Assembly (NCBI RefSeq): GCF_013403245.1
Contig: NZ_JACBNQ010000028.1
Location: forward strand, 1 to 38,472
DNA: 38,472 nt
Source: Sedimentibacter hydroxybenzoicus DSM 7310
GTDB lineage: Bacteria; Bacillota; Clostridia; Tissierellales; Sedimentibacteraceae
Reading direction: 5' to 3'
Shown here: in pieces, positions 1,263 through 32,850 of the stretch
Layout: every line of letters begins with the position of its first letter
Numbering within the stretch: the first letter of the stretch is position 1
Made by a program: the position numbers and the translations under genes
Notes under the pieces: model-generated
Told to the model about the DNA's origin: nothing
The model's input: the letters and a program-made list of their open reading frames with translations, nothing else
Database searches by the model: none

Positions 1263-2681
1263 TTACTTAGCTTTCATGGAATGTATGGCTTGCTTTTTAA
1301 CGGCTAATACCGCTTCCTTTAATCCTTCAGAAACAGTAGGATGTGGATGAATAGTTTCAATGAGCTCATCTACTGTGACTTCTAAATTGATACCAAGAGA
1401 AAATTCTGAAATCATTTCAGTCGCCCTCGGTCCATAAATTGAAATACCTATTATTTCATCATACTTTTTATCGGTTACAACTTTAATGAAGGTATTTTCA
1501 ACATCACCTGTAATTAATGTTTTCCCGTTATTAACCAACGGAAACATACCTGTTTCGTAGTCAATGCCGCGATTCTTGGCTTCGTCCTCTGTAATTCCCA
1601 CATATGCTACTTCTGGTTTGGTATATAGACATCCGGGGACAATGTCATAGTTTATGGTTTTATTACTTCCAAGCAGCATATTTTCAACCGCAACTATGCC
1701 TTGTTCTTCTGCAACGTGAGCCAGCATAATCTTACCCGTTACATCTCCCACCGCATATATATTTTTAACATTTGTTTTCATGTTGCTGTCAATGTTTATG
1801 AAGCCTCTGTTGCTTACAGCTATTTTTGCGTTCTCTGTTTGAAGTCCTGTTGTCACAGGTTTTCTTCCTGTTGAAATTAACACATTATCTCCGTATGCAA
1901 ATTTGTCTTCTCCGTTTAGCTCATACTTAACACAAAGCCTGCCATCCTTTTTTTCTATTCCGACAACCTTTGCTGAGGTTTGTATTTGTATTCCTGACTT
2001 CTCCATATTTGCAGCCAACATTGCAGCCACATCTGAATCTATAGACTGACCTAATTTAGGCATCATTTCAATCATGGTTACTTTTGTTCCAAAGGAGCTG
2101 TATACACTGGCAAACTCGATACCTATGACACCGCCACCTATAATAACCACTTCTTCCGGTAATTTTTCTGAGCAAAGAGCTTTTGTACTGTCTATTACCC
2201 CTTCTAAGTCTGACCCCTTTATAGGTGGAATCATAGGCTCGGAGCCTGTTGCTATCACAAAATATTCGCTGTTTATAACCTCTTCTTTCCCGTCTGACAA
2301 TCTTACCTTTATACTTTTATTGTCAAGGAAGCTTGCTTCTCCTCTTATTAATGTTATATTATTGGATTTAAGAAGCATTTCAACTCCCTTAACAAGCTTG
2401 TTTATTATGCTTACCCTTCTCGTTTGTAATTTCTGCCAATTTACTTTGGGTTTGTTTTCTAATTCTAATCCTAATTCATCGGCATGCTTTAATTCTTCAT
2501 ATAGCTCTGCAGTATGAAGCAATACCTTTGTAGGGATACATCCAACATTAAGGCAAGTGCCTCCAAGATCTGCTCTTTCTATTAATGCAACCCTTGCGCC
2601 TAATTGTGCCGCTCTTATTGCAGAAACATAGCCTCCTATACCTCCGCCGATTACTGTTACCTTATAATCATTTGCTGACAT
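1263..2681 (-). CDS. lpdA: Dihydrolipoyl dehydrogenase (E3) of the 2-oxoacid dehydrogenase operon
   Basis: This 472-residue flavoprotein reoxidises the dihydrolipoyl arm of E2 and passes electrons to NAD+. The FAD-binding GGGIGG is at residues 12-17, the redox-active disulfide C43/C48 is in GGTCLNVGC, the NAD-binding GGGVIG is at about 182-187, and the catalytic His447/Glu452 pair is in HPHPTVSEG near the C-terminus. All are intact and the length is normal. The ATG at 2681 has a GGAAGGAG site and lies 17 nt after panB, so it is co-transcribed as the last gene of the operon. A second E3, in the glycine cleavage operon, is clearly divergent, which suggests each complex has its own partner. Confidence 0.95.
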   Translation of the reverse strand: MSANDYKVTVIGGGIGGYVSAIRAAQLGARVALIERADLGGTCLNVGCIPTKVLLHTAELYEELKHADELGLELENKPKVNWQKLQTRRVSIINKLVKGVEMLLKSNNITLIRGEASFLDNKSIKVRLSDGKEEVINSEYFVIATGSEPMIPPIKGSDLEGVIDSTKALCSEKLPEEVVIIGGGVIGIEFASVYSSFGTKVTMIEMMPKLGQSIDSDVAAMLAANMEKSGIQIQTSAKVVGIEKKDGRLCVKYELNGEDKFAYGDNVLISTGRKPVTTGLQTENAKIAVSNRGFINIDSNMKTNVKNIYAVGDVTGKIMLAHVAEEQGIVAVENMLLGSNKTINYDIVPGCLYTKPEVAYVGITEDEAKNRGIDYETGMFPLVNNGKTLITGDVENTFIKVVTDKKYDEIIGISIYGPRATEMISEFSLGINLEVTVDELIETIHPHPTVSEGLKEAVLAVKKQAIHSMKAK

Positions 2682-2698
2682 ATATTGCTCCTTCCCTA

Positions 2699-3547
2699 TT
2701 ATTTAAATTCCTCAAATAACTTTTCGAATTCGGCAATATCTTCGCTTATGTGATACACATGTTTGTCTTCAGGAAATTTAACATTTCTTACGTCATCACA
2801 ATATTCCTTTATAGCACTGATAGTTATCTCTGCCAGATTCGCATATTTCTTTACAAATTTAGGAGTGAATGCCTGAAACAATCCCAACATATCCCCGCAA
2901 ATAATTAATTGTCCGTCACATGATGCACCGGCACCGATAGAATATACAGGAATAGTTAATTTTTTAGTTATATATTCCGTTACTTCCGGCGGAACTGCTT
3001 CTAATAAAAGAAACTTTGCTCCGGCTTCCTCTATTGCTATAGCATCTAATATTAATTCTCTGGCACTTTCCACTGTTCTGCCCTGTGCTTTAAATCCGCC
3101 AAGAACCCCTGAGCTTTGAGGAGTTAAGCCAATGTGTCCGCAAACAACTATACCTGCATCCGTAATAGCTCTTATACGTGAACACATTCTTCTTCCACCC
3201 TCAAGCTTAACAGCATCAACATCAGCTTCTTTTAAAAATCTGCCTGCATTTTCAACTGCTGATTCGTCTGATATCTGGTATGACATAAACGGCATGTCAC
3301 CTACTATCATTGTATTTTTAGCACCCCTTCTTACTGCCTGACAATGTGATATACAATCATCCATTGTAACAGGTATGGTACCTTCATATCCCAATACAAC
3401 CATTCCCAAGGAATCACCGACAAGTATCATGTCAATTCCTGCTTGTTCAGCAAATGAAGCAATAGGAAAATCATATGCTGTAATCCATGTTAGCTTTTCA
3501 CCCTTTTTCTTCATAGATTGCAAGTCAAGAATACTTTTTTTCCTCAT
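2699..3547 (-). CDS. panB: Ketopantoate hydroxymethyltransferase (PanB) in a catabolic operon
   Basis: PanB reversibly transfers a hydroxymethyl group between 5,10-methylene-THF and 2-oxoisovalerate, giving 2-dehydropantoate. The TIM-barrel landmarks are all present: TAYDFP, ILVGDSLGMVVLGY and VGDMPFMSYQ (the Mg-binding Asp pair), AVKLEGG (Lys/Glu), GHIGLTPQS and the catalytic Glu in LLLEAVPPEV. I choose the ATG at 3547 (282 residues, normal length), which has GAGGTG 6 nt upstream. The longer frame from 3607 adds 20 atypical residues and no good site. It lies between E2 and E3 of a dehydrogenase, with no panC or panD near. That setting suggests it runs in the cleavage direction, feeding 2-oxoisovalerate to E1 (inference). 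Confidence 0.93.
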   Translation of the reverse strand: MRKKSILDLQSMKKKGEKLTWITAYDFPIASFAEQAGIDMILVGDSLGMVVLGYEGTIPVTMDDCISHCQAVRRGAKNTMIVGDMPFMSYQISDESAVENAGRFLKEADVDAVKLEGGRRMCSRIRAITDAGIVVCGHIGLTPQSSGVLGGFKAQGRTVESARELILDAIAIEEAGAKFLLLEAVPPEVTEYITKKLTIPVYSIGAGASCDGQLIICGDMLGLFQAFTPKFVKKYANLAEITISAIKEYCDDVRNVKFPEDKHVYHISEDIAEFEKLFEEFK

Positions 3548-3580
3548 TATATTCACCTCATAATAATTAAATTTAAAGTA

Positions 3581-3627
3581 CTCCTTCTTAAAAATATTTA
3601 ATAACATCTGTTTATTTTAAGAAGGAG
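3581..3627 (-). promoter_or_regulatory. Intercistronic stem-loop between E2 and panB
   Basis: A 13-bp perfect inverted repeat, CTCCTTCTTAAAA (3581-3593) and TTTTAAGAAGGAG (3615-3627), closes a 21-nt loop. No T-tract follows on the minus strand, so it is more likely an mRNA-processing or stability element, or a weak attenuator, than a full terminator. It contains AAGGAG-like sequence that would be hidden in the stem, while the real panB site lies downstream. Confidence 0.6.
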
Positions 3628-3650
3628 AAATGTAATACGGTGATTGATAT

Positions 3651-4973
3651 TTAATCAATCAACAAATATGGATTTTCTATAAATTCCTTTATTTCGCTCA
3701 GGAATTTAGCTGATAATGCACCGTCCACCAAGCTATGATCTGTCGTCAGACTTAAATTCATCATAGGTCTTACAACCACTCGTTTATCAATTGCTACAGG
3801 CTTATCAACTATTCTGTTTATTCCCAAAATGGCAACCTCAGGTCTGTTGATAATAGGTGTAAATGAATCCATTCCAAACATACCGATATTTGTAATCGTG
3901 AATGTTCCATTAAATAAATCATCAGGATTCAGCTTGTTGGTTCTTGCATTTTCTATCAATCTTTCCGTTTCTTCTGCTATCTCCTTAAGGGTCATTGTTT
4001 CCAGACCTTTAACATTAGGTACCATCAATCCCTTTTCAACATCTACTGCTACACCAAGATTTACATAGTTATGATATGTTATGGTATCATCCTCTAAGCT
4101 TGCATTAAGATGTCTGTACTTCATCAGAAGCTTGCCAAGTACCTTCATTATCATATGATTATACGTTAATTTCAATCCTTCTGCTGCATATATCGGTTTA
4201 AGCTTTTCTCTTAATCTGATAAATTCTGTCATATCTACTTCCATGTTAAATGTTACCATAGGAGTAGCAATCCAATTTGCTCTCATTCTCTCTGAGATGA
4301 TTTTTCTCATACCGACAGCTTTTTCAGTCTCTGTAGGCTGATCATATGCTGATTTTTCAGATTTTGTTGCATATCCCGCAACATCTGATTTCTTAATTCT
4401 GTCATTCTTTTCAATTGCGGACAAATCTATATTATTTTCAGAAGCCATCTTCTTAGCTGCAGGCGTAGCCTTTATTCTCGGCTTATCATTTTGATATCTC
4501 TCAACATCTTTTGCCAATATAACTCCGCTATAGCCTGTCGCTTCAACTTCCGATAAATCTATACCTTTTTCATAGGATAATTTCTTAGCATAAGGTGTAG
4601 CAAGAATGTAGTCAGAATTTTCTTTTGTATTCTTTATTTCATTAACTTCCACATCTGATATATACGATGTATCCGCAACTTTTTCCTCTTCTTTATTGCC
4701 TAAGTTCTTCCCTATTATCCCGGAGATATCCTCATTTTTATCAGCAATAACACCTATAAGCGCCTTAACAGGCACGGTTTCACCTGCTTGTACAACTATC
4801 TTTCTTACTATTCCCTCTGTATCTGCAATAATTTCATTGGTAAGCTTATCTGTTTCTACCTCAAATAACTTATCCCCTACTTTTACATTATTTCCTTCTT
4901 CAACAAACCACTTGGTGACAGTTCCTTCTGCCATCGTAAGTCCTAATTTGGGCATTAATATTTCTCTTGCCAT
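3651..4973 (-). CDS. 2-oxoacid dehydrogenase E2 (lipoyl acyltransferase) with tandem subunit-binding domains
   Basis: E2 carries the acyl group on lipoate and transfers it to CoA. In order it has one lipoyl domain (about 1-77, lipoyl-Lys43 in VETDKLTNE), a linker, two peripheral-subunit-binding motifs (about 124-160, TPYAKKLSYEKGIDLSEVEA; about 168-202, TPAAKKMASENNIDLSAIEK), and a catalytic domain with TDHSLVDGA near the C-terminus. The second binding motif lacks the usual GTGxxGRI loop. I choose the second ATG (4973, 440 residues) because AAGGAGG lies 6 nt before it, whereas it touches the first ATG. By motif it is nearer acetoin/pyruvate-type than branched-chain E2; the substrate cannot be fixed. 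It would need lipoylation, for example by the LplA at 13108. Confidence 0.93.
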   Translation of the reverse strand: MAREILMPKLGLTMAEGTVTKWFVEEGNNVKVGDKLFEVETDKLTNEIIADTEGIVRKIVVQAGETVPVKALIGVIADKNEDISGIIGKNLGNKEEEKVADTSYISDVEVNEIKNTKENSDYILATPYAKKLSYEKGIDLSEVEATGYSGVILAKDVERYQNDKPRIKATPAAKKMASENNIDLSAIEKNDRIKKSDVAGYATKSEKSAYDQPTETEKAVGMRKIISERMRANWIATPMVTFNMEVDMTEFIRLREKLKPIYAAEGLKLTYNHMIMKVLGKLLMKYRHLNASLEDDTITYHNYVNLGVAVDVEKGLMVPNVKGLETMTLKEIAEETERLIENARTNKLNPDDLFNGTFTITNIGMFGMDSFTPIINRPEVAILGINRIVDKPVAIDKRVVVRPMMNLSLTTDHSLVDGALSAKFLSEIKEFIENPYLLID

Positions 4974-4997
4974 ATTCATCCTCCTTCACAGCTTTAA

Positions 4998-5966
4998 TTA
5001 AAATAAATCCTTTAACCCTTTTGCAATTTTTTCTGAATTTAATCTATAAGCATTTTCTAATGGTGGTGAAAATGGTACCGGAGTAAATGGCGCCCCAAAT
5101 CTCTTAATTGGTGCATCTAAGTACTCTACTGCTTCTTCTGCTACGTATGCAGCAATTTCAGAGCCAACGCCCCCTTGTTTTACCGCCTCATGTATAATGG
5201 CTAATCTATGAGTTTTCTTTACCGATTCTAATATTGTTTCCTTGTCATAAGGCACTATCGTTCTAAGGTCAATAATTTCAGCATTAATTCCGTCCTTGGC
5301 TAATAAATCAGCAACTTCATAAGCTTTTTTCATTGCTATTGAATAAGAAACTATAGTGATATCCGAACCTTCTTTTGCTACCTTAGCTTTTCCTATAGGA
5401 ACGAAATATTCACCATCAGGAACCGGTCCTTTTTCCTTATATAATATTTTATTTTCAAAATATATTACAGGATTGTTATCTCTTATTGCTGATTTTAATA
5501 ATCCTTTAGCATCTGCAGGATTTGATGGTGTAACTACCATAAGCCCCGGGATATTCATAAACCATGCTTCAATGCTCTGTGAATGCTGTGCTGCTGCACT
5601 CAAAGACAATCCGTCAGGTGCTCTTATAACCATTGGAACTGTAGTCTGCCCTCCAAACATATATCTGATTTTAGCCATTTGATTAAATACCTCATCCATG
5701 GCAACACCTAAAAAGTCTGCATAGTGCATATCCGCTACAGGTCTTAATCCTGCCAGCGCAGCTCCTACTGATGCTCCGATAATTGCTGTTTCAGATATTG
5801 GAGTATCCATAATTCTTTCGCCGAATTCAGCAGGCAAACCTTTGAATTGTCCAAAAATTCCACCTTGTCTTACTATATCTTCCCCCATTACAATTATGTC
5901 TTCATCTAACCTCATTTCTTCTGCCATTGCTTCTAATGTTGCTTGTGAAAATGTAATCTCTCTCAT
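4998..5966 (-). CDS. 2-oxoacid dehydrogenase E1 beta subunit (acetoin/pyruvate type)
   Basis: This 322-residue transketolase-like subunit forms the thiamine-diphosphate E1 with the product of the gene just upstream. Landmarks are MGEDIVRQGGIFGQFKGLP, ERIMDTPISE, the pyrimidine-binding domain through AQHSQSIEAWFMNIPGLMVV, and the C-terminal domain with DLRTIVPYD and HEAVKQGGVGSEIAA. The length matches AcoB/PdhB. The ATG at 5966 follows GGAGG and lies 11 nt after E1 alpha, so the two are translated together. It acts in the cytosol in a large E1-E2-E3 complex. The sequence does not tell whether it takes pyruvate, acetoin or a branched oxoacid. Confidence 0.95.
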   Translation of the reverse strand: MREITFSQATLEAMAEEMRLDEDIIVMGEDIVRQGGIFGQFKGLPAEFGERIMDTPISETAIIGASVGAALAGLRPVADMHYADFLGVAMDEVFNQMAKIRYMFGGQTTVPMVIRAPDGLSLSAAAQHSQSIEAWFMNIPGLMVVTPSNPADAKGLLKSAIRDNNPVIYFENKILYKEKGPVPDGEYFVPIGKAKVAKEGSDITIVSYSIAMKKAYEVADLLAKDGINAEIIDLRTIVPYDKETILESVKKTHRLAIIHEAVKQGGVGSEIAAYVAEEAVEYLDAPIKRFGAPFTPVPFSPPLENAYRLNSEKIAKGLKDLF

Positions 5967-5977
5967 TTTTCTACCTC

Positions 5978-6949
5978 CTACACATATAAGTCATCAAATA
6001 TTTCTGACGGATCCGGGTACTCACTGTTTAGTGCGAAATTTAATGCTTCTTTAATTTCTATTTCAACTTTTTCTCTTATTTTCTTTAGCTGTTCTTCAGT
6101 CATTAATTTTTCTGACAAAACTTCTTCTTCAAATCTTGTTATTGGATTATTATTTACATATATTTCATTAACTTCTTCTTTTGTTCTATACATTTCGGGA
6201 TCACCTACAAAGTGACCTTTAATTCTATACGTCTTAGCTTCTAAGAAGAACGGACCGTTACCAGCTTTAACATATTCCAATGCTTCCTTGAAGCCTTCAT
6301 ACACTGCAAAAATATCATTGCCATCAACAATTTTACTCGGCATATTATATCCCTGTGCTCTTATCGATATGTCCTCTACTGCTGTTGTAGTTCTATATGG
6401 AGTTGTTGATGCCCATTGGTTATTTTCACAAACGAATATTACTGGTAATTTCCACGCAGATGCCATGTTTAATGCTTCATGGAATGTTCCTCTGTTTGAT
6501 GAACCATCACCGAAAAAAGCGACCGAAACATTAGTTCTTTTTTTCACCTTAATAGCTAATGCAGCACCTGTAGCTAAATTGAATCCTCCGCCTACTACTC
6601 CGTTTGCTCCCAGCATTCCTACTGAAAAATCAGCAATATGCATTGAGCCTCCCTTGCCCTTGCAAGAACCTGTCTTCTTTCCAAATATCTCGGCCATAAC
6701 CTGATTCAAATCTGCACCCTTTGCAATTGTATGTCCGTGACCTCTATGTGTACTTGCTATATAATCTTCATCTGTTAAGCTCGTGCAAACACCTGATGCA
6801 ATTGCTTCTTCACCTATGTATAGATGCACAAATCCCGGTATTTCTCCATCTAAGAAATACCTCTCAACTGTTTCTTCAAATCTTCTGATTTTCATCATTT
6901 TGTAGTAAAATGTTTCTAATAATTCCTTGTTATACTTTACCATTCTCAT
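5978..6949 (-). CDS. 2-oxoacid dehydrogenase E1 alpha subunit (acetoin/pyruvate type)
   Basis: This is the thiamine-diphosphate-binding half of E1 (323 residues), which decarboxylates the substrate and hands it to the E2 lipoyl arm. The TPP motif runs from GDG (147-149) to NN (176-177). GKGGSMHIADFSVGMLGANG and GHFVGDPEMYR are typical of the AcoA/PdhA branch; branched-chain E1 alpha usually differs here. The start at 6949 has AAAGGAGC 6 nt upstream. A 216-bp gap to dctM is the longest inside the operon and could hold a separate promoter or a processing site. The apparent acetoin-type character is the main objection to a 2-oxoisovalerate substrate. Confidence 0.94.
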   Translation of the reverse strand: MRMVKYNKELLETFYYKMMKIRRFEETVERYFLDGEIPGFVHLYIGEEAIASGVCTSLTDEDYIASTHRGHGHTIAKGADLNQVMAEIFGKKTGSCKGKGGSMHIADFSVGMLGANGVVGGGFNLATGAALAIKVKKRTNVSVAFFGDGSSNRGTFHEALNMASAWKLPVIFVCENNQWASTTPYRTTTAVEDISIRAQGYNMPSKIVDGNDIFAVYEGFKEALEYVKAGNGPFFLEAKTYRIKGHFVGDPEMYRTKEEVNEIYVNNNPITRFEEEVLSEKLMTEEQLKKIREKVEIEIKEALNFALNSEYPDPSEIFDDLYV

Positions 6950-7008
6950 GTTCTGCTCCTTTAAATATATTTACATTTCCATGTACTTAATGATTCATTA
7001 TTAAACTA

Positions 7009-7146
7009 TTTGAAAAAATATATCCGGTTTCCTCGTAATGCTTCATGTATAAGACCGATTACAAAGGTTGGATTCTCTCCCTTGAAGAAGTACCCTCCAT
7101 ATGCTATTTCTTGCTGCAAACAAGCATATGGAGATGAACTGAATTT
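7009..7146 (-). pseudogene. Open stretch without a start codon between dctM and E1 alpha, possible gene scar
   Basis: On the minus strand a frame stays open for about 46 codons between TGA (7149-7147) and TAG (7008-7006). It reads like real protein, with the segments CLQQEIAYGGYFFKGE and NPTFVIGLIHEALRGN, but has no start codon or ribosome binding site. I do not recognise the family. It may be the tail of a lost gene or coding-like repeat DNA. Confidence 0.3.
7095..7133 (-). promoter_or_regulatory. Intercistronic stem-loop between dctM and E1 alpha
   Basis: A 10-bp perfect inverted repeat, CTCCATATGC (7095-7104) and GCATATGGAG (7124-7133), closes a 19-nt loop. There is no T-tract on the minus strand, so it is probably an RNA processing or stability element separating transport genes from enzyme genes. 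Confidence 0.5.
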
Positions 7147-7165
7147 TCAAGAATAACTGCTAAAT

Positions 7166-8434
7166 TTACATCAGTCCGGGAAGCCAAAGAGTTATTGCCG
7201 GCACAAAAGTTGTCAACATCAATGTTATTAATCCAACTGCAAAATACGGCAGCATTGAAATAACTGCCTTCTCAAATTTTGACCCGGCCATCTGAGAACC
7301 GAGTAACAGGCATATTCCAACCGGAGGAGTCAATAGTCCCAAGCATAAGTTAACTGTCATAAGAACTCCGAATGTTATTGGTGACATGCCAAGTTGTGTT
7401 ACTATTGGAACTAATATTGGAATTAAAATTATAACGGCTGCATTTGCTTCCATTAAGCAGCCAACTATAAGCAATATAATATTAACTAGCATTAATATTA
7501 AGAATGCATTGTCTGTTATCCCCAGTATTGCATTAGCAACCATTGTTGGCAAATTAATAACTGTTATTACCCATGCTAATATTTTTGATGTTGCCAGAAT
7601 TAACATAATAGTTGAAGCAGAAACCGCAGCCTCTCCAAGTATTTTTGGCAAATCTTTAAGGGTAAAGCCTTTATATACAAACAATCCTATTATAAAAGCA
7701 TATACTACTGATACAACTGCTGCTTCCGTAGGTGTAAATGTTCCCGAAAAAATTCCTCCCAATATTATAACCGGCATCATCAACGCCCAGAAGCCCTCCT
7801 TAACTGCATCAAACTTTTCTTTAAAGCTCGTTTTTCCTTCTCTGGGATAATTATTTTTCCTTGCCTGATATACAGCAATTAATATAAAGGCAAAAGTCAT
7901 AAAAATTCCGGGAACAGCCGATGCTAGAAATAATGAGCTGATTGAAAGCTGAAGCGATGAACCATAGACTATTAAAGTTATACTTGGAGGAATTATAGGA
8001 CCAACTATAGATGCCGAAGATGCAACACCTGCTGCATAATGATCAGGGTATCCTTGTTTTATCATAGCCGGGATAGTTATCCCCCCAATAGCTGCTACAG
8101 TAGCAACCGCAGATCCTGATATAGCTGCAAAGAAAGCAGATGCAACTATTGTTATAATCGGAAGACTGCCCGGCAGGTTTCCTAGAAATGCATTTGCAAC
8201 TCTTATAATTCTTTTATTTAAGCCTCCCCCATTCATCAATTCTCCTGATAGTATGAAGAAAGGAATAGCTAATAAAGGAAAAGAATCAATACCACCAAAC
8301 AACTTTTGCGGCACTACCACTAGCGGATATCCTTCGGCTATTATGGTTACAAGTGAAGAAATTCCTAGTGAAAATGCTATTGGTATGCCTATGATTGCAA
8401 AAACTAATATTAAAATTATTAATATAATTCCCAT
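7166..8434 (-). CDS. dctM: TRAP transporter large permease (DctM)
   Basis: This 422-residue, highly hydrophobic protein is of normal length for DctM, with about 12 membrane helices. Family landmarks include the opening helix after MGIILIILILVFAIIGIPIA, PFFILSGELMNGGGLNKR, SASIVGPIIPPS and the C-terminal LLTPPVGICLLLGSQ. It forms the ion-coupled channel of a tripartite TRAP importer for carboxylates or related acids, together with DctQ and the binding protein DctP. It lies 1 nt after dctQ, so translation is coupled. Confidence 0.95.
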   Translation of the reverse strand: MGIILIILILVFAIIGIPIAFSLGISSLVTIIAEGYPLVVVPQKLFGGIDSFPLLAIPFFILSGELMNGGGLNKRIIRVANAFLGNLPGSLPIITIVASAFFAAISGSAVATVAAIGGITIPAMIKQGYPDHYAAGVASSASIVGPIIPPSITLIVYGSSLQLSISSLFLASAVPGIFMTFAFILIAVYQARKNNYPREGKTSFKEKFDAVKEGFWALMMPVIILGGIFSGTFTPTEAAVVSVVYAFIIGLFVYKGFTLKDLPKILGEAAVSASTIMLILATSKILAWVITVINLPTMVANAILGITDNAFLILMLVNIILLIVGCLMEANAAVIILIPILVPIVTQLGMSPITFGVLMTVNLCLGLLTPPVGICLLLGSQMAGSKFEKAVISMLPYFAVGLITLMLTTFVPAITLWLPGLM

Positions 8435-8435
8435 G

Positions 8436-8915
8436 CTATACCTCCTTAATGTTTCTACTCTTAATATCGTTGATAATTATCTCTATTGTAAATAGCAACA
8501 TTAAAAATCCGCCTACCGGAACCGAGGCATACATATACGCCATAGGAATTCTCAATCCAGAAGATAATTGTTTAAAAGTTATACTGACAAGGTTGACACC
8601 ATAAATTATAATTACCAATAAAAAGCCTATAATCAATGCTTTTGTAATAATTGAATTTATAGTCTTCATAGTCTTGGGCATACGCTTCACCACAAAATCA
8701 ACATCCATATTTCTACCGCGTCTTGTAGCTACAGCTGAACCAAGCATAGACATCCAGATTAATGTATATCTTGTCAATTCTTCAGCCCACGGATTACCGC
8801 TTTCAAATATAAATCTCAAAACAATCTGGTAAAAAAATGCTATTACCATAACAGTAAATAATATTGCCAATATCCACAAAATAATTTTTTCTAGTTTATC
8901 GAGAACTATTTTCAT
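8436..8915 (-). CDS. dctQ: TRAP transporter small permease (DctQ)
   Basis: The 159-residue membrane protein has four hydrophobic segments and the DctQ pattern: ALFTVMVIAFFYQIVLRFIF near the start, NPWAEELTRYTLIWMSMLGS in the middle with WAEELTRY conserved, then RRGRNMDVDFVVKRMP. It stabilises the large permease DctM, whose gene follows after 1 nt. The start ATG (8915) lies downstream of a 16-bp hairpin that separates it from dctP. Confidence 0.93.
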   Translation of the reverse strand: MKIVLDKLEKIILWILAILFTVMVIAFFYQIVLRFIFESGNPWAEELTRYTLIWMSMLGSAVATRRGRNMDVDFVVKRMPKTMKTINSIITKALIIGFLLVIIIYGVNLVSITFKQLSSGLRIPMAYMYASVPVGGFLMLLFTIEIIINDIKSRNIKEV

Positions 8916-8976
8916 TTCTTTTAGTAATACAAAGATATTTCTCCCGTATTATTGCCTCCTTCTGATAAAATTTTCA

Positions 8977-9012
8977 AAAATACTTATTCACAGAAATGTG
9001 AATAAGTATTTT
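8977..9012 (-). promoter_or_regulatory. Strong stem-loop between dctP and dctQ
   Basis: A 16-bp perfect stem (8977-8992 and 8997-9012) closes a 4-nt loop, starting just after the dctP stop codon. The minus strand continues TGAAAATTTT, a weak T-tract. The likely effect is partial termination or 3' protection, raising binding protein levels above the permease, as is common in binding-protein transport operons (inference). Confidence 0.75.
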
Positions 9013-9025
9013 GCAATTTTTTACT

Positions 9026-10012
9026 TTATCTTGATGCGTGTACTTCTTCAACTAAACCAGCTAAATTAGGAAATTCTTTTGCAAAATCAGCAAGTTTTTC
9101 TTGGAATCCGCTTAAATCCGGTCTTAAAACTTCCATTCCTTTCTCCGCCATAAGCTCAATTGTTTCAGCTTCAAGATCTTCTACAAGCTTTGTTCTGAAA
9201 TCTCCAGCTTCTTTTGCAGCTTCTCTGAAAATCTTTTGTTGCTCTTCCGGGAGACCATTAAAATATTTGTCATTGAATATGAATACATCTGTACTAAACA
9301 CATGGTTAGTTAATACCAAATATTTGCACACATCATAGAATGCATTACCATAGCTATACATTATAGGATTTTCTTGTGCATCAACTGTACCTTGCTGCAA
9401 TCCGGTATATATTTCTGAAGGATCCATAGGCAACGGTGATGCTCCCAAATATTCCCAAGTTTTTATGTACATTTGTATCCCCGGTGCTCTAATTTTTACC
9501 CCTCTGAGATCATCAGCACTTTCAATCTTTTTGTTCGATGTTACAATTCTGGCACCTCTGTTTGAAGGTCCCATCAGTACAAAATTACCTTCTTCAGCAA
9601 CAGCATCCATTATCTTTTGACCTACTTCACCGTTAAGCATTACTCTTTTATAGTGGTCATAATCATCATATAAATATGGATATGCATCTATACTTGCTGT
9701 AGGGCTGTATGCTTCTAAAGTTCCTATACTTTCACAAACAATCTGCACAATATTTGGCTCAAGTCCTTCAATAGTATCTCTCCATGATCCTAAAGTTCCG
9801 CCTGAATAAACTTCAACTTTCATTGTTCCATTTGATTTCTGATCAACTAATTTTGCAAACTCCTGTAATGATTGATCCCTCTCATCTCCTAATGCACTAC
9901 CATTCGCTAATTTAAAGACAGAAACCTCATCGCTTTTAGATCCACAACCAACGACAGATGCTGCAGCCAACACGACTACTAATACTAAAGCTAATAATTT
10001 AGATTTTTTCAT
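9026..10012 (-). CDS. dctP: TRAP transporter substrate-binding lipoprotein (DctP)
   Basis: The 328-residue extracellular solute-binding protein has a lipoprotein signal: KK at the N-terminus, a hydrophobic core and the lipobox ASVVGC, after which it would be lipid-anchored. DctP landmarks are GVKIRAPG, whose Arg usually grips the substrate carboxylate, GASPLPMDPSEIYTGLQQG and TVDAQENP. I choose the ATG at 10012: the in-frame ATG at 10024 overlaps the ribosome binding site (ATGGAGG), which is correctly spaced for the downstream start. It lies between the SDR gene and the permease genes. The substrate is an organic acid by family; pantoate is my proposal from the operon context. Confidence 0.95.
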   Translation of the reverse strand: MKKSKLLALVLVVVLAAASVVGCGSKSDEVSVFKLANGSALGDERDQSLQEFAKLVDQKSNGTMKVEVYSGGTLGSWRDTIEGLEPNIVQIVCESIGTLEAYSPTASIDAYPYLYDDYDHYKRVMLNGEVGQKIMDAVAEEGNFVLMGPSNRGARIVTSNKKIESADDLRGVKIRAPGIQMYIKTWEYLGASPLPMDPSEIYTGLQQGTVDAQENPIMYSYGNAFYDVCKYLVLTNHVFSTDVFIFNDKYFNGLPEEQQKIFREAAKEAGDFRTKLVEDLEAETIELMAEKGMEVLRPDLSGFQEKLADFAKEFPNLAGLVEEVHASR

Positions 10013-10063
10013 TTTTTCCTCCATAAAATTTTATAAATAAGTTTTAAATTGTACTAAGAAATT

Positions 10064-10822
10064 TTAGTGATAAGAGAATCCTCCGTCTACCATGTAAAGA
10101 GATGCTGTAATAAATTGTGCATCATCCGATGCCAAAAATACAACAAGCTCCGCAAGCTTACTTGGATCTCCTGCTGTTTTTAAAAGAAAACTATTCTTTA
10201 GTTCTTCAATTTGTTCTGCGCCCATGTTAGCCTCAATAAGAGGTGTAACGTGAAGAGATGGGGCTATTGCATTACAGTATATTCCATATGGTGCGCATTC
10301 TTTTGCAACAGCTTTTGTAAATCCTATTACACCTGCTTTGGCAGTTGCATAAGCTGCCTTTCCAAGTAATCCACCACCTCTTAATCCGGCAACTGATGAA
10401 AAATTAACTATTTTACCGTATTTATTTTCAACCATATTTTCTATAACAGCTTTTGTACAGTTAAACATACTGGTCATATTTAAATCTATCAATCTATCCC
10501 ATTTTTCATCATCCAATTCTCTTAGCCCAAGAGCAATATCTCTGCCCCCACCTGCACAATTGATTAAAATATCAACTCTACCAAAATCCTGAATTACCTG
10601 AAGTCCTATTTCCTGCACTTCTTTGTAATCCGTAATGTTTGTTTTATATCCTTTAGCTTTTACACCATAACTTGAAAGCTTTTCTTCCATTTCTTTTAAA
10701 CCCGCCTCATTTACATCCCACAATGCAACATTTGCACCATTTTCTGCAAACTTTATAGCTACTGCGGCACCTATTCCTCCGGCAGATCCTGTAATAACAG
10801 CGATTTTATCTTTTAATCTCAT
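10064..10822 (-). CDS. Short-chain dehydrogenase/reductase, first gene of the sigma-54 operon
   Basis: A 252-residue classical SDR: nucleotide-binding TGSAGGIG at residues 11-18, an acidic residue after strand 2 (ALWDVN, suggesting NAD(H)), NCAGG, the catalytic Ser in VNFSSVAG and YATAK (Tyr/Lys). The C-terminus ends in the usual VDGGF. It interconverts an alcohol and a ketone in the cytosol. As the promoter-proximal gene beside an importer and a 2-oxoacid dehydrogenase, it most simply oxidises the imported hydroxy acid to the oxoacid, for example pantoate to 2-dehydropantoate. The family alone does not give the substrate; annotation as FabG would be misleading. Confidence 0.93.
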   Translation of the reverse strand: MRLKDKIAVITGSAGGIGAAVAIKFAENGANVALWDVNEAGLKEMEEKLSSYGVKAKGYKTNITDYKEVQEIGLQVIQDFGRVDILINCAGGGRDIALGLRELDDEKWDRLIDLNMTSMFNCTKAVIENMVENKYGKIVNFSSVAGLRGGGLLGKAAYATAKAGVIGFTKAVAKECAPYGIYCNAIAPSLHVTPLIEANMGAEQIEELKNSFLLKTAGDPSKLAELVVFLASDDAQFITASLYMVDGGFSYH

Positions 10823-10882
10823 TTTTTTCTCCTGTTTTATTATAAGATTTTTTAACTAAACCCTCCTTCGTTATTTTTTATA

Positions 10883-10900
10883 ATGCAAACTTTATGCCAA
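10883..10900 (-). promoter_or_regulatory. Sigma-54 (-24/-12) promoter of the catabolic operon
   Basis: The minus strand reads TTGGCATAAAGTTTGCAT from 10900 to 10883. It has the invariant GG (10898-10897) and GC (10886-10885) with exactly 10 bp between, matching TGGCAC-N5-TTGCA with few changes. Transcription should begin near 10873, about 50 nt before the SDR start codon. The adjacent gene encodes a sigma-54 activator, which supports the call strongly. Confidence 0.92.
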
Positions 10901-10980: not shown

Positions 10981-11030
10981 AACAGTGCTAAAATATTGAG
11001 CAATCAATTGCTCAATATTTTAGCACTGTT
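10981..11030. promoter_or_regulatory. 24-bp perfect palindrome: activator site and/or terminator of the regulator gene
   Basis: The arms 10981-11004 and 11007-11030 are perfect reverse complements with a 2-nt centre; the inner part is GAGCAATtgATTGCTC on the minus strand. It begins 20 nt after the regulator's stop and is followed on the minus strand by TATATTTTTG, so it can act as a terminator. Its centre is about 132 bp upstream of the predicted sigma-54 start site, the normal distance for an enhancer-binding activator. It could serve as both. Confidence 0.75.
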
Positions 11031-11050
11031 TAATAATTACACACTAATAT

Positions 11051-12982
11051 TTACATTTGATAATTATATATATCCAAATTATATTTTTTTACTTTGTTAT
11101 ATATCGTGTTTCTTGTAACTTTAAGCATGTTTGCTGCCGTAGTAATATTTCCGTTCGATACTATAAGAGCTTGTTTAATTGCTCTTTCTTCTAAAACCTC
11201 TAATGGAACAATATCATTTTCATTTGATGAGTTCATACAACTATGTTGATTTATGCTATTATCTTGATAAAACAAATCACTATTTATCTCTTTTTCAGTA
11301 ATCATATTACCCTCGCAAATATTAACAGCTCTTTCCAGCACATTTTCTAACTCTCTTACATTTCCGGGCCAATCATATTTAATTAACAAATCCAATGCAT
11401 CCGAAGAGATGCCTAAAATAGTTTTATCCAAACGATAGCTATATTTATTTATAAAATATTCAGCTAATATAGGTATGTCTGATTTTCGTTCTCTCATGGA
11501 TGGAATTTTAACATTCAATACGTTAATCCTATAGTATAAATCCCTTCTGAAAAGTCCTTGGTCGCATAGCTTAATCAGGTCTTTATTCGTAGCAGCAATA
11601 ATTTTAACATCTACATTAAAAACATTGTAGCCTCCAACCCGTGTAACCTTTTTATCCTGAAGCACTCTCAACAGCTTAACCTGCATATCAAGCGGCATCT
11701 CTCCTATTTCATCTAAAAATATTGTACCACCTTCAGCAAGCTCAAATTTACCTGTTCTCCCCTTTGTGGATGCTCCTGTAAAGGAGCCGGCCTCATAACC
11801 AAACAATTCCGATTCTAATAATTCTCTTGGTATAGCACCACAATTAATCGTTACAAATGGTTGATCTCTCCTATCGCTATGACTATGTATCGAATGTGCA
11901 ATTAACTCCTTACCTGTACCACTTTCACCTGTTATTAAAACATTGGATGTGCTGTTTGCAGCAATCTTTGCTATTTTTATACACTTCTTAAGATTAGTGC
12001 TGTTTCCTATTATATCATCAAATCTAAAGTTAGAATACGCACCCGTCATCTCATTTATAAGTTTTTGTACTCTCTTAATCTTTCTGAATGTGTCAACCAC
12101 ATTTACTATATTTCCATCATCATCCTTTACCGGAACAGCCGTCTTTATAAAATGAGTCTTTACACCTGTCCTATCGGAAACTATAATTTCTTTGTCAACG
12201 TAGCCTTGTCCCGTTTTCAAAACATTTAAAATCACCGGTTTAAAATCCACCAATTCCGAAACGTGCTTTCCCATTGATGTTTCTCTTTCAAACCCCAAAA
12301 TTTCTGCTCCAACTTGATTGATATACTCCAAGCGACCCTCTTTATCAATTATGAGCAATCCATCTGTAATGGAATTCATAATGGCGCTCTGCATCTTGTA
12401 CCTCAAGCTTAACTCTTTGTTGCTATTGTTAGATTCGTATCCTAATCCTATTATCTTAGCAATTGACTCAATTATACTGAGTGAATCATTGTTGTTTCTG
12501 CCTTTTGACACTACCGAAAGAGTTGCAATTATCTCATTGTTATAATAAATCGGTGCACTCATTGATAAAAGATTATGATAACAATCACAATAATGATCAT
12601 CTCCAATTAAACATATAGATTTATTTTCAATAATCGAAGTACTTATTGAGGTATTACCGTTATACTCCTCACTAAATCGTCCACCCAAACAAAAATAAGC
12701 ATTATCTAACCTTTTATTTGAATGAGGTTGTATTTCATCAACAATATATCCTTCCTTATTCACTAAAGCTATTAATAAATAATCGTTAAGAAGCTTTTCC
12801 ACCTGTTCCATAAATGGATGTGCAGTTTTTATTAAATCTTTGTGTTTCGCTAATAAATTACTTAAGTCAGATTCAGATATATCGTTAAAACATAGATCGC
12901 TTTGTCTGTTTGTATTCAGATGTTCACATCTTTCCCATCCATTTAACACATAATCATGTTTTTGAATCACAAATGATATCAT
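11051..12982 (-). CDS. Sigma-54-dependent transcriptional activator (AcoR-like, GAF-PAS-AAA-Fis)
   Basis: This 643-residue activator has a GAF-like sensor region (about 50-185), a PAS domain (about 196-305, starting near [20 protein letters not shown]), an AAA+ domain (about 322-560) and a C-terminal Fis-type helix-turn-helix ([20 protein letters not shown]). Walker A GESGTGKE is at 352-359 and Walker B GTIFLDE at about 419-425. The sigma-54 contact loop reads GSFTGA (399-404) instead of the commoner GAFTGA, an accepted variant. The architecture is that of AcoR, the acetoin-operon activator. It lies directly upstream of the -24/-12 promoter, so it most likely senses the operon's substrate through its N-terminus. 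The ATG follows GGGAGG. Confidence 0.94.
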
Positions 12983-13107: not shown

Positions 13108-14091
13108 TTAATTAAACAAACATTTCATAAATTCGTCTTTGGAAATTCTTCCTAAATAATCCTCAACCGTAACATCTGATAGAGCATCAATCACTTCACT
13201 TTCATTATATCTGAGCCCATTTATTTTTTGTTCTAATTCATGTATATCGCCTTTTCCGAAAAAATCTCCGTAAATTTTACAGTTTTCTATGATGCCGTTT
13301 TCAACCTGTAATCTTGCTTCAACACAACCGCCTGCAAATCTGTTGTATCCGCTATAATTAAATTTAGGTGATTTGCCGTAATTCCACTCCCATGTACCAT
13401 ATCTTTCATCGACCATTTTTTGAATGTTATTTTTGTCATCTTCAGATAATTCATATATTTCTAAAGGTTGATCAAAATATTCAAATATATTTTTTAATAA
13501 AACCTGTTTAAATTGCAAGACATCAATATCATCCTTAACGTACGGCTTGATGTTGGTAACCCGGCTGGAAACTGATTTAACTCCCTTTGATTCTATTTTA
13601 TCCCTCTTTACATTTAATGCCTTCGACAATGTATCTAATTTGGAATCAAAAAGCAAGGTTCCATGATTTAAAACTCTGCCTTTATTCACACTTTGAGCTA
13701 TTCCGGAAAATTTCTTTCCATCAATTACAATGTCGTTTCTCCCAGACAATTCACAATTAACTCCCAGCTTTTCCAATGCTTTAATTATGGGAACGTTATA
13801 TGTTTTAAAATCAATTAAATTGCTTTCTGTTTTAGTTATAAATGAAAAATTCAAATTTCCCAAATCATGATAAACTGCACCTCCGCCGGTTACCCTTCTG
13901 ACTACATTTATATTATTTTCCTTAACATAATCCATATTAATTTCTTCAACCGTATTTTGATTTTTCCCTACGATTATAGAAGGTCCGTTTCTCCACAATA
14001 AAACAATATCTTCATCTAAATTTTTAAAAATATATTCTTCAAATGCTAAATTATAATGTGGATCAATAGAATTGTTTTCAATAAATTTCAT
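13108..14091 (-). CDS. lplA: Lipoate-protein ligase A
   Basis: The 327-residue ligase activates lipoate with ATP and attaches it to lipoyl-domain lysines. Motifs are NLAFEEY near the N-terminus, the lipoyl-AMP-binding RRVTGGGAVYHD at 65-76, the catalytic Lys (about 127) in DGKKFSGIAQ and NHGTLL. The C-terminal accessory domain is present (KFNYSGYNRFAGGCVEARL), so it should be self-sufficient. The start has GAGGAG and lies 16 nt after the Dph6-like gene, with which it is probably co-transcribed. Likely targets in this window are the E2 at 3651 and GcvH at 32328. Confidence 0.95.
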   Translation of the reverse strand: MKFIENNSIDPHYNLAFEEYIFKNLDEDIVLLWRNGPSIIVGKNQNTVEEINMDYVKENNINVVRRVTGGGAVYHDLGNLNFSFITKTESNLIDFKTYNVPIIKALEKLGVNCELSGRNDIVIDGKKFSGIAQSVNKGRVLNHGTLLFDSKLDTLSKALNVKRDKIESKGVKSVSSRVTNIKPYVKDDIDVLQFKQVLLKNIFEYFDQPLEIYELSEDDKNNIQKMVDERYGTWEWNYGKSPKFNYSGYNRFAGGCVEARLQVENGIIENCKIYGDFFGKGDIHELEQKINGLRYNESEVIDALSDVTVEDYLGRISKDEFMKCLFN

Positions 14092-22372: not shown

Positions 22373-23431
22373 TTATTTATCAAGATATTTCAAAACATTT
22401 TTTATCTGTTTTTTTTCAATATTTTTTACGAAATTTTCCATGTATTCATAATGAATTTTACCATCTAATACGGGAAGCATAATTTTTTGCCTTTTCAATC
22501 TTCCTGTCCCCATTTTATATCCATAGCCATACTTCTCTCTCTGCCTTGTGATTGCGTAAGTTATAAAAAGGGAAGTATATTTATTTCTTTTAATAGGCTT
22601 TAATTTCCTAGTATCATTTCCATAAAGGGCTTCATATGAATGATAAAATGAATATCCTACTGAACCATTACGGTTTACAGATATACATTCAGATTCTTTT
22701 GTAGTATTTTCATTATCAACAAAATATCCGATACCATTATTGCTAGCGGTCGCTGTAATATATGGTGTATTTCCATCTATTCGTTCTCGTTCGTAAATAT
22801 CCTTACCCGATACAATTTCTGCTGTTTCTTCTATAAAAAACTCTCCCCACTCTACATCTGTAAGCACTTCTGGACTAATCACCAAATCAAGCAATATATC
22901 CTTATAGTAATCTTTTAGTCTTTGCCTTTGCTTTTCTTCTCTTTCCCTGATAAATTTTTCCATGAAGTGCCAATTGGGATTACCATCCTCATTTATAGGC
23001 AATACTATTTTTGTACGATTTAACCTTGTTAAAGTCGCCCCATTTCCACCCCAATTAAACTTTTTCATTTGAATTTTAATGAGCGGAATGATAAACATAG
23101 CATTATTTCTATTTAAATTTGAGTTTCGTAATACTTGAATATTTTGACCGGTAAAAAAAGCATTTCTTTGGTAAAATACTGTTTGCGTATCTAAACCAAT
23201 AGTTATAACATTACCCTCATCTTTTTTATACTTTTTGTTTTGTTCATCAGTAATAAACAGATTAATACCGTTATCTATTTCGCTTCTCGTAATATAAGGA
23301 GTATCTCCAGTAATAACATTCAACTTATTTTTGTCAATTCCGCTTCGTGTTGCCGTAATATTGAAAAGACCTTCATCTCCTCCAATAAAAAATTCTCTCC
23401 AATCGACGTCTTCTAAATTACATCTATACAT
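22373..23431 (-). CDS. Specificity (S/B) subunit of a BcgI-like restriction-modification system
   Basis: About 352 residues with two copies of a target-recognition module: WREFFIGGDEGLFNITATRS with TPYITRSEIDNGI in the first, and WGEFFIEETAEIVSGKDIYE with TPYITATASNNGI in the second. Each ends in a helical spacer (EKFIREREEKQRQRLKDYYK and MENFVKNIEKKQIK). Two half-site recognition domains with coiled spacers are the layout of type I S and BcgI B subunits; BcgI B is of similar size (341 residues). Its start overlaps the end of the methylase gene. I use the second ATG (8-nt overlap); the first ATG, at 23443, sits directly on the GAGG site. Confidence 0.88.
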   Translation of the reverse strand: MYRCNLEDVDWREFFIGGDEGLFNITATRSGIDKNKLNVITGDTPYITRSEIDNGINLFITDEQNKKYKKDEGNVITIGLDTQTVFYQRNAFFTGQNIQVLRNSNLNRNNAMFIIPLIKIQMKKFNWGGNGATLTRLNRTKIVLPINEDGNPNWHFMEKFIREREEKQRQRLKDYYKDILLDLVISPEVLTDVEWGEFFIEETAEIVSGKDIYERERIDGNTPYITATASNNGIGYFVDNENTTKESECISVNRNGSVGYSFYHSYEALYGNDTRKLKPIKRNKYTSLFITYAITRQREKYGYGYKMGTGRLKRQKIMLPVLDGKIHYEYMENFVKNIEKKQIKNVLKYLDK

Positions 23432-25391
23432 AGTCGATACCATCCTCTGCTACTTTTAAAATTTCTTTTTCAATCAATTCATCCTCTTTAATTCCAAACA
23501 AGTATCCTCTGCCATGTGTAATCATATTTACCTCAAAGGTAAGATAATCAGCAATTATCTTTTCAAAATCTTCTTCCTTTGGGATTTCATCATTAAAATA
23601 ATAGAAAGAATGTAACCATTCGTCTGTATCTTCTACTGTTGTTGAAACACAAAACTTTGTAGGTGCTTCTATTTCATCATTCCACACATCTAAAAGATGT
23701 CTCTTTTTATCCTTTGCACTTCCATCGTCAATGAGACCTATATGTTTACTTACAATATATCCGTCATTTTCAAAGTTTATAAACTTAGCCTTCTTCATTT
23801 TGTAATGTGGAATGCCTGCTGTAAAGATACCGATACAAGGATTAGTACCAACACCATAAAAAGTATTCTTGTTAAGCGTTATAACCCCTTCAAGAGTATG
23901 TTTTTTTAGAATTTTAGTTTTCAAATTCTGCTCATCTTTAGTTTTTCCAGTAAAGGTTGATTGCGGAACAATAACTGCAACCTTTGCTCCCTCAACTAAA
24001 CTTTCTAACAAGTGATTAACAAAGTTTATCTCATATAATTCAGGATTTTGTTTTGAGCCTTGAGAGTATGGCGGATTCATCATTCCCACCGTACAACCCT
24101 TTAATTGTAATTTGCTTGGATTTTGTACTAAAAAATCTTGGTTTTCTAAATTACTTTTGCCATCACCACGAAGAATCATATTTGTAGTAGCTATGGTAAA
24201 CATATAATCCTGTAATTCAATTCCAAAAAGCTGGTTTTTTCGTATATCTAACTTTTGTGCTTCATCATCAGTTTTAGAAAGCATTTGATTCATAGCAGCA
24301 ATTAAGAAACCTGCTGTCCCACAACATGGATCTAAAACTCTATCCGTTGGCTTAACATCTAAAAGTTCACAAAATAAATCCGTAATATGTCTTGGTGTAA
24401 GTATGATCCCTAGAGATTGGCCATCACCACCAGAATAAGACATAAATTCACCATAAAATCTACCTATGTAGTCCTCTGTAGATGAACTATATTTAATATT
24501 AGTAAAAATACTGTTATATAAAACCTCTGTAAAATATTTTAATGGTGTTTTTCCTAAGTTAGTATTTATTTCATTTATTTTGTTATTGTCCTTAATAATG
24601 TTGAATTGATTAAGAAGTTTATCTCTCTTAACTTCAGGGCTAACATTTGCTCTTTTTAAATTATCTTCTATAGCTTTATAAATTTTCGTTCCGTCAGTTC
24701 TGATTTTATCCCCATTCAAATCTAATATATCAAAGTTTTTATGTTCAATCTCTGATAACGCAAGAAGTATTCCTGAAACAATGAGAGGTTTATTCTTATC
24801 TTCTAAGTTACCATAATTTCTTAAGTCTTCATGTAATGAGCGAGCAACTTTTAAAAGTTCCTCTGTCTTTAGTTCTTCATTTGTCTTTACCTTTAGAACT
24901 TCTCTTTCATAGTATTCTGTGATGTTTTCTTCACTGAAAGAGATAAAAGTTTCTACATTTTCAAGTTCTTCATAATCTCCACGCTCATTAATAAAAACAG
25001 GTGAAATTATATGATTTTTTTCATTCCCACTAACACCTATAGCAATAATCTTTTTATAACTTGTCTTTGCTGCAAGGTGCTTTCCATAAAATAATGCTCC
25101 GTTTACAGCATAGTCTGTGATAGATTTTATATCTTCAGCAATCAAATCCCTTTCATCGCGTAAAATATGCTTATTTAAATTCGCTTTATCTTCTATAACA
25201 ATAAGAAAATCTTTTACTACACCTACATACTCAGGAAAGCCTACATTCCCTGTGCCTTTCTTCGAAGCGGAAGATAGAGCTTCATCTATTTCTTTAACAT
25301 TACTTCCTTGTGCAAAAAACTTATTTTGTACTCCAATTTCCTTGAGCATGTCATATACCCAAAGATCTGTCATAATTTCTTTTTTAGCCAT
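23424..25391 (-). CDS. BcgI-like restriction-methylation subunit (nuclease plus N6-adenine methylase)
   Basis: The 655-residue protein starts with a PD-(D/E)xK-type nuclease (P53-E54, then E67-D68-K69 in FPEYVGVVKDFLIVIEDK) and continues with a helical connector and a gamma-class methylase: LTPRHITDLF, SAM motif DPCCGTAGFL (354-363) and catalytic NPPY (439-442). Cleavage and methylation in one chain with a separate S subunit is the BcgI (type IIB) plan, where the A subunit is 637 residues. It should methylate adenine at a bipartite site and cut on both sides; the recognition site is not predictable. It overlaps the controller gene by 8 nt and has a GGAGG site. Confidence 0.9.
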   Translation of the reverse strand: MAKKEIMTDLWVYDMLKEIGVQNKFFAQGSNVKEIDEALSSASKKGTGNVGFPEYVGVVKDFLIVIEDKANLNKHILRDERDLIAEDIKSITDYAVNGALFYGKHLAAKTSYKKIIAIGVSGNEKNHIISPVFINERGDYEELENVETFISFSEENITEYYEREVLKVKTNEELKTEELLKVARSLHEDLRNYGNLEDKNKPLIVSGILLALSEIEHKNFDILDLNGDKIRTDGTKIYKAIEDNLKRANVSPEVKRDKLLNQFNIIKDNNKINEINTNLGKTPLKYFTEVLYNSIFTNIKYSSSTEDYIGRFYGEFMSYSGGDGQSLGIILTPRHITDLFCELLDVKPTDRVLDPCCGTAGFLIAAMNQMLSKTDDEAQKLDIRKNQLFGIELQDYMFTIATTNMILRGDGKSNLENQDFLVQNPSKLQLKGCTVGMMNPPYSQGSKQNPELYEINFVNHLLESLVEGAKVAVIVPQSTFTGKTKDEQNLKTKILKKHTLEGVITLNKNTFYGVGTNPCIGIFTAGIPHYKMKKAKFINFENDGYIVSKHIGLIDDGSAKDKKRHLLDVWNDEIEAPTKFCVSTTVEDTDEWLHSFYYFNDEIPKEEDFEKIIADYLTFEVNMITHGRGYLFGIKEDELIEKEILKVAEDGIDYV

Positions 25392-29524: not shown

Positions 29525-29531
29525 TTTTCAC

Positions 29532-30977: not shown

Positions 30978-30978
30978 A

Positions 30979-32316: not shown

Positions 32317-32327
32317 TAGCTCCTCCT

Positions 32328-32702: not shown

Positions 32703-32850
32703 ATAATCCTCCTGTTATTTACAATTGTACAAAATTGATTCAATTGTTTCATAATTTTTATTTACTAATATAAATACCCAATTTATATTGTTTTAATTCT
32801 ATTTTTTTGCTAACATGCTCAGTAATAATATAATTTAATATTGTTTTATG

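Follow-up and report, generated by a model that had tools for sequence, protein, structure and literature searches.

A PanB-family hydroxymethyltransferase in a 2-oxo acid dehydrogenase operon of Sedimentibacter hydroxybenzoicus: a probable catabolic role

What would a hydroxymethyltransferase of the PanB family be doing inside an operon for a 2-oxo acid dehydrogenase? The question is raised by a stretch of 38,472 nucleotides from Sedimentibacter hydroxybenzoicus DSM 7310 (contig NZ_JACBNQ010000028.1), hereafter called the window, in which a PanB gene (2699 to 3547, minus strand) lies between the genes for the E2 and E3 components, 17 bases separating it from the latter. A preliminary description of this DNA had proposed that PanB runs backwards here, in the degradation of pantoate or a related hydroxy acid. 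The general idea of a reversed PanB gains support from the genome's lack of any match to panC or panD, from the subfamily of the protein, which is devoid of panC neighbours, and from the pairing of some relatives' PanBs with PanE, a tripartite ATP-independent periplasmic (TRAP) importer, Fhs, FolD and FocA, or with PanE and PanF. We infer that this PanB is used in catabolism and in the reverse direction, with a probability of roughly 0.7.

The gene belongs to a single minus-strand run whose order, from 12982 down to 1263, is sigma-54 activator, short-chain dehydrogenase/reductase (SDR), DctP, DctQ, DctM, E1-alpha, E1-beta, E2, PanB and E3. All are long open reading frames (ORFs) matching the expected families in profile scans, which confirms the gene content that had been described. 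The PanB product scores 332 bits against TIGR00222 (cut-off 208) and 367 bits against PF02548 (cut-off 28.7); its frame stays open to 3607, and 3547 is more likely to be the translation start, as judged from a GAGGTGA Shine-Dalgarno-like stretch just upstream of it. It is flanked by the dihydrolipoyl dehydrogenase E3 (1263 to 2681; TIGR01350, 537 bits, cut-off 409) and by E2, a protein with lipoyl, E3-binding and acyltransferase domains (3651 to 4979; PF00364, PF02817, PF00198), beyond which come a pyruvate-dehydrogenase-like E1-beta (4998 to 5966; PRK09212, 350 bits, cut-off 321) and an E1-alpha resembling pyruvate dehydrogenase (PDH) and acetoin dehydrogenase (5978 to 6949). The TRAP importer is complete, consisting of the large permease DctM (7166 to 8434; TIGR00786, 434 bits, cut-off 268), the small permease DctQ (8436 to 8915; PF04290) and the solute-binding protein DctP (9026 to 10024; TIGR00787, 212 bits, cut-off 175), and is followed by the SDR gene (10064 to 10822; PF13561/PF00106). 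The PDB relatives of DctP are uninformative as to its ligand, the best matches being mostly sialic-acid binders, and those of the SDR are mainly generic FabG-like proteins; no NCBIfam model among the 25 shown exceeds its cut-off for the SDR.

Is vitamin synthesis a likely purpose? In the source genome, of 3.81 Mb at 98.9% completeness and 3.2% contamination, neither panC (PF02569) nor panD (PF02261) gave any match; of 14 control genomes, the same searches detected panC in 9 and panD in 8. The earlier remark that both genes are missing nearby can thus be extended to the whole genome, which does not hold a sole panB with panC and panD elsewhere: it has two PanB genes and lacks a match to either panC or panD. 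When genome contigs were scanned with the window PanB, at least 592 loci were found; among the 80 best, which were considered further, a top group of 21 stands apart at 62-80% identity, the next loci reaching 56% at most. This group is spread over Bacillota, Desulfobacterales, Spirochaetales, Bipolaricaulota, Atribacteria, Synergistaceae and others. In the available DNA around its members, panC or panD is near PanB in none of the 21, PanE in two (L004 and L005), and no E1, E2 or E3 gene stands beside PanB; panC, panD or panE was seen in 52 of the 59 lower loci.

A PanB tree of 87 rows places the window protein in a 42-row clade (support 100/96, two long-branch outliers included) without any panC-linked row, and the core of this clade is here called type B; both PanBs of the genome fall in the clade. 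Type A is a second clade, at about 44% identity to the window PanB, within which the PanF-linked rows form one group (95/90). Among mapped rows, panC lies near PanB in 0 of 39 for type B versus 31 of 56 for the canonical enzymes; Fhs, the formate-tetrahydrofolate (THF) ligase, is encoded nearby in 5 of the 39 type B rows, in 2 of 9 from type A and in 0 of the 56 canonical ones. Curated models give type A as well as type B the name of the vitamin-synthesis enzyme, 3-methyl-2-oxobutanoate hydroxymethyltransferase. Given a genome without panC or panD match and a subfamily without panC neighbours, the window PanB is probably not meant for vitamin synthesis.

How does the protein itself compare with the canonical enzyme? 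The equivalents of Escherichia coli D45, D84, K112, E114, H136 and E181, which together with S46 we take to be catalytic or metal-binding, are intact in 41 of 41 type B rows, the window PanB included, where S46 is also kept (E. coli numbering); alignment to E. coli PanB thus bears out the intact active site noted before. The differences lie elsewhere: canonical rows (n = 57) carry V179 in 53, I200 in 56, V212 in 55 and V214 in 57, whereas type B rows (n = 41) carry L179 in 41, Y200 in 30 (L in 8, F in 2, I in 1), L212 in 32 and I214 in 33. The window PanB, with L179, Y200, L212 and I214, lacks the canonical set, while all 11 type A rows (including the identical L113 and L131) have V179, V212 and V214. 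In the three intact rows linked to an IlvD-like dehydratase, T or C at 202, N212 and N214 would make up a polar pocket. The variants I202A and I212A of the E. coli ketopantoate hydroxymethyltransferase are described as altering its 2-oxo acid range (PMC7611260), Table 2 of that paper giving a conversion raised by both variants for products 3h and 3i, and by I202A alone for 3c. Judging from these effects, positions 202 and 212 would line the 2-oxo acid pocket. The bulkier residues that most type B rows have at this probable pocket suggest a smaller 2-oxo acid, such as pyruvate or 2-oxobutanoate, rather than 2-oxoisovalerate.

Further information comes from the relatives' genomic regions, which were mapped with marker proteins. 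Type A PanB is found in L112 and L114 in the order GntR-TRAP-PanE-PanB-Fhs-FocA-FolD, and together with PanE and PanF (TIGR02119, 552-577 bits, cut-off 328) in four putative pantothenate degradation clusters. One of these (L132, 7765 to 14582) comprises PanF, PanE, PanB, an M20 hydrolase and a class III aminotransferase, two others (L133, 8307 to 13439; L135, 8089 to 14475) PanF, PanE, PanB and the M20 hydrolase, and the fourth (L113, 1940 to 8637) an Amidohydro_3 protein instead of the M20 enzyme. The three M20 hydrolases are orthologous (80-89% identical; the one scanned, from L132, is of the ArgE/DapE kind) and directly adjoin PanE or PanB, with PanF close by. Such a hydrolase, along with the aminotransferase of L132, is as expected for the splitting of pantothenate into pantoate and beta-alanine, and is a candidate for pantothenase, a protein described as still unidentified as of 2023 (PMC10393543). 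Canonical PanB and PanE are accompanied, in the Chloroflexi locus L071, by a relative of the M20 hydrolase at 46%. Besides, L113 and L131 share 8,573 bases at 100% identity, their genomes (G007 and G207) being placed in different families, which reflects either a recent transfer or a mis-binned contig.

As for type B, formate-THF ligase is encoded near PanB in six loci (L005, L103, L104, L105, L119 and L120), some of them also containing FolD, FchA or FocA, which fits methylene-THF as a product. Type B occurs with an IlvD-like dehydratase, a TRAP importer and a second, polar-pocket PanB in L004 (the same as L118) and L122, with broken copies in L130, and with a UxaA-like dehydratase in L005; these two-PanB dehydratase operons could remove two hydroxymethyl groups in succession, for instance from dehydrated apionate. 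Other partners are an enolase-superfamily protein with two TRAP sets (L128), a gene with SBD_N/NBD_C domains that is presumably sugar-acid-kinase-like (L126), aminotransferase or glutamate-dehydrogenase-like genes (L117, L124, L127) and an aminotransferase-like neighbour whose nearest model is of PdxR type, below its cut-off (L007). The trait common to type B loci is the absence of panC and panD. A protein of 415-446 amino acids, here called U420, adjoins the type B PanB of 9 of the 21 upper loci, from several phyla (L010, 1089 to 2336; L011, 7529 to 8791; L014, L016-L020 and L024). Scans of two members against Pfam and of one against NCBIfam gave no match; the predicted fold is alpha/beta (pLDDT 83.9), and its likeness to methylene-THF reductases (TM score of about 0.3-0.4, root-mean-square deviation of 12 A) is too weak for any function to be drawn from it. 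In genome G269, a divergent PanB (46% identity to the window PanB, N at 214) is found in L158 (8003 to 13460) beside an Ldh_2-family dehydrogenase, a TctCBA-like importer and an RraA-like protein (both named by eye), then Fhs and FolD.

Which 2-oxo acid would the dehydrogenase accept? Compared with PDB proteins, E1-alpha scores 216 bits to mitochondrial PDH and 139 bits to the branched-chain 2-oxo acid dehydrogenase (BCKDH), and E1-beta 277 bits to PDH and 224 bits to BCKDH, so that an enzyme of the branched-chain kind is disfavoured, albeit with mixed evidence for E1-alpha. The latter falls short of the PDH equivalog TIGR03182 (376 bits, cut-off 394) and could be acetoin-like. The sequences thus lean towards pyruvate-type substrates. 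The caveat of the preliminary description, that E1 looks acetoin- or pyruvate-like, gains weight from the best PDB scores of both subunits and loses some from another PDH, 3dva, which scores below BCKDH. The genome contains further E1 operons, namely L144, which is aco-like and includes an AcoX-like gene (by eye), and two TRAP-E1-E2-E3 operons (L145 and L146).

From these elements, a pathway can be proposed. The TRAP system would import a 2-hydroxy acid with a terminal hydroxymethyl group, which the SDR would oxidise to a 4-hydroxy-2-oxo acid. From this intermediate, PanB of type B would, as a demethylolase, transfer the C4 hydroxymethyl group onto tetrahydrofolate, so that methylene-THF is formed and a small 2-oxo acid is left, which the PDH-like E1/E2/E3 complex would convert to an acyl-coenzyme A (acyl-CoA), NADH and CO2. 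In the simplest series, 2,4-dihydroxybutyrate would yield 4-hydroxy-2-oxobutanoate, then pyruvate and methylene-THF, and finally acetyl-CoA. The one-carbon (C1) unit might proceed to formate and ATP through the single formate-THF ligase of the genome, or to the nearby glycine system. Genes for the latter (gcvT, gcvH, gcvPA and gcvPB, with a second dihydrolipoyl dehydrogenase, all named by eye) occupy positions 28124 to 33945 of the window, as a possible user or source of methylene-THF. That PanB, SDR, E1-alpha, E1-beta and E2 recur together in genome G023, in a different order, supports a shared pathway. A small 4-hydroxy-2-oxo acid with a pyruvate-type product is the substrate favoured here for this operon, judging from pocket and E1 comparisons, at somewhat less than an even chance. 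Still more tentatively, the PanB family of anaerobes may have split into several catabolic demethylolases feeding methylene-THF towards formate and ATP: type A with PanE (plus PanF or TRAP) for pantothenate and pantoate, the polar-pocket type beside IlvD-like or UxaA-like dehydratases, where it could strip two hydroxymethyl groups in turn with type B, and type B for the cleavage of 4-hydroxy-2-oxobutanoate to pyruvate, the window holding a type B version wired to acetyl-CoA.

Several observations weigh against this pathway. Regarding the pocket, I202 is unchanged in type B, V214 or V212 is kept in 8 or 9 of the 41 rows, including the Fhs-linked L104 and L105 and the second PanB of the genome (63% identical to the window PanB), all of which keep both, and strand alternation with 181, 202 and 212 is the ground for placing columns 179, 200 and 214 at the substrate. 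Regarding E1, the PDH E1-alpha 3dva (115 bits) ranks below BCKDH, and E1-beta scores 269 bits to the 2-oxo acid dehydrogenase 1um9, presumably a Thermus enzyme, whose substrate the listing leaves unnamed. The operon carries no gene for C1 disposal, type B contexts are very mixed, with several loci lacking a recognisable partner, and the second PanB (L003, 7162 to 9616, contig C12) lies directly behind L-serine dehydratase-like genes (annotated by eye), a setting that a small-acid demethylolase leaves unexplained; such genes were not seen beside its same-genus orthologs L106-L109, on short contigs. Finally, PanB is present in two of 14 loci with an E1-alpha ortholog (the window and L102) and missing from 12. 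These loci, some of them cut by contig ends, were gathered at 64% identity or more and consist of the window, eight others at 70% or more, four at 69-72%, and L152, found through DctP; the concern of the preliminary description that relatives' operons might not conserve PanB is therefore partly borne out. L143 and L152 have the order activator-E1-alpha-E1-beta-SDR-TRAP-E2-E3 without PanB, and L161-L164 an E1 ortholog and a TRAP importer, no dehydrogenase being recognised.

Such loci bring up another, less probable explanation, in which TRAP, SDR and E1-E3 suffice by themselves to turn a hydroxy acid into a 2-oxo acid or ketol and then acyl-CoA, PanB being added in this lineage for a side task, either to recycle formaldehyde or methylene-THF arising as a by-product or to broaden the range of substrates. 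The SDR-TRAP-E1-E3 loci devoid of PanB do indicate that PanB is not an obligate step and that the remaining set can work alone. No PanB was found in the genome of L143 (G194, 86% completeness), whereas that of L152 (G269) encodes four outside this locus, of which one resembles type B and two, accompanied by PanE, resemble type A. E1 orthologs are accompanied by other TRAP importers in L137-L140 and L142, with an alcohol-dehydrogenase-like gene in L137, L138 and L140 (the one scanned, in L138, is Tdh-like and replaces the SDR), and the contig of L141 ends before any TRAP gene. Conversely, in L148, L150 and L151 the window-type TRAP importer accompanies another SDR, with E1 absent from the vicinity, and in L149 of G023 it lies at a contig edge, followed by a 2-hydroxy-3-oxopropionate-reductase-like gene (below cut-off). 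The aco-like operon of the genome also favours a self-sufficient dehydrogenase set. What makes the side task doubtful is the tight insertion of PanB just ahead of E3, suggesting a role in the same flux, and its persistence in L102, a 4.5 kb contig of G023 with the order PanB-E1-alpha-E1-beta-E2-SDR (PanB 89% identical, cut at the contig end; E1-alpha 86%; SDR 79%), that is, with the same partners despite the rearrangement. In the loci that have it, PanB probably allows the pathway to handle a hydroxymethyl substrate as well.

The specific route of the preliminary description, from imported pantoate through SDR-made ketopantoate to 2-oxoisovalerate and methylene-THF, and then to isobutyryl-CoA, has in its favour the annotated family, the genome free of panC and panD matches, and the relatives' PanE and type A PanB clusters, which look like genuine pantoate or pantothenate degradation. 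Nevertheless, those clusters are of type A, with V179, V212 and V214, and the window PanB is of type B, with a bulkier pocket; besides, an SDR stands in place of PanE, E1 scores best to PDH, and SDR-TRAP-E1 operons exist without PanB. The reversal of PanB is retained, and pantoate as the starting compound is unlikely in this operon. Far less probable still is a PanB making pantoate for CoA, its place in the operon being accidental: the catalytic residues and family name would agree, and pantothenate synthesis through unknown partners is conceivable in principle, but this possibility was rejected because no panC or panD was found in the genome; in addition, type B is never next to panC in the mapped rows, and the family search gave no PanB match in 12 of its 27 genomes.

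Coming back to the catabolic operon, its control appears to involve sigma-54, as proposed before. A -24/-12-like site, TGGCATAAAGTTTGCA (10884 to 10899, minus strand), with one mismatch to TGGCAC-N5-TTGCW, is located some 60 bases upstream of the SDR start and beside the GAF-PAS-AAA-Fis activator gene (11051 to 12982, minus strand; PF01590, PF00989, PF00158, PF02954). Its weight comes from this position and the adjacent activator rather than from statistics, since the pattern with up to two mismatches occurs 19 times in the window against 15.1 expected, which is not significant. Between the site and the activator gene, an inverted repeat of 20 perfectly matched pairs, with T-rich DNA after it (10982 to 11029, minus strand), is a candidate terminator of the activator gene and/or binding site of the activator. 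The run from SDR to E3, with a 216-base gap between DctM and E1-alpha, is likely to form a single transcript. The adjoining gene at 13108 to 14091 (minus strand) codes for what we take, by eye, to be a lipoate-protein ligase, which could lipoylate E2. The window also contains a 16-pair inverted repeat between the DctP and DctQ genes (8977 to 9012), Type I restriction-modification-like genes for specificity and methylase subunits with a helix-turn-helix gene upstream (22373 to 25809, by eye), and a low-complexity stretch of which one strand encodes long asparagine runs (34954 to 35457).

In comparison with known systems, the window PanB shares PF02548 and the catalytic and metal-binding residues with E. 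coli PanB (EC 2.1.2.11, structure 1m3u), and differs from it by its probable pocket residues, separate clade, catabolic neighbourhood and a genome without panC or panD match. As in the type A clusters, PanB is tied to a dehydrogenase and an importer, L112 and L114 adding genes leading from C1-THF to formate; those clusters, however, have PanE, canonical-like pockets and, in four distinct ones, PanF, where the window has an SDR, E1-E3 and a type B pocket. The succession E1-alpha, E1-beta, E2 and E3 with an activator recalls what we take to be acetoin/pyruvate dehydrogenase operons with AcoR-type sigma-54 activators, exemplified in this genome by L144, except that the window lacks an AcoX-like gene and has TRAP, SDR and PanB added. 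The Pseudomonas pantoate route through aldopantoate and dimethylmalate, mentioned in the preliminary description, degrades the same class of acid with other enzymes. Among the matches listed by a search of titles and abstract beginnings, with most subscription journals outside its scope, no description of reverse PanB as a natural catabolic route was found. Engineered pathways built on promiscuous PanB exist, of which the window operon would be a natural counterpart. Should types A and B be catabolic, genomes would have been wrongly credited with pantoate synthesis, and metabolic maps would lack a route that yields C1 units from hydroxymethyl acids. Finally, the type A clusters make the old pantothenase gap testable.

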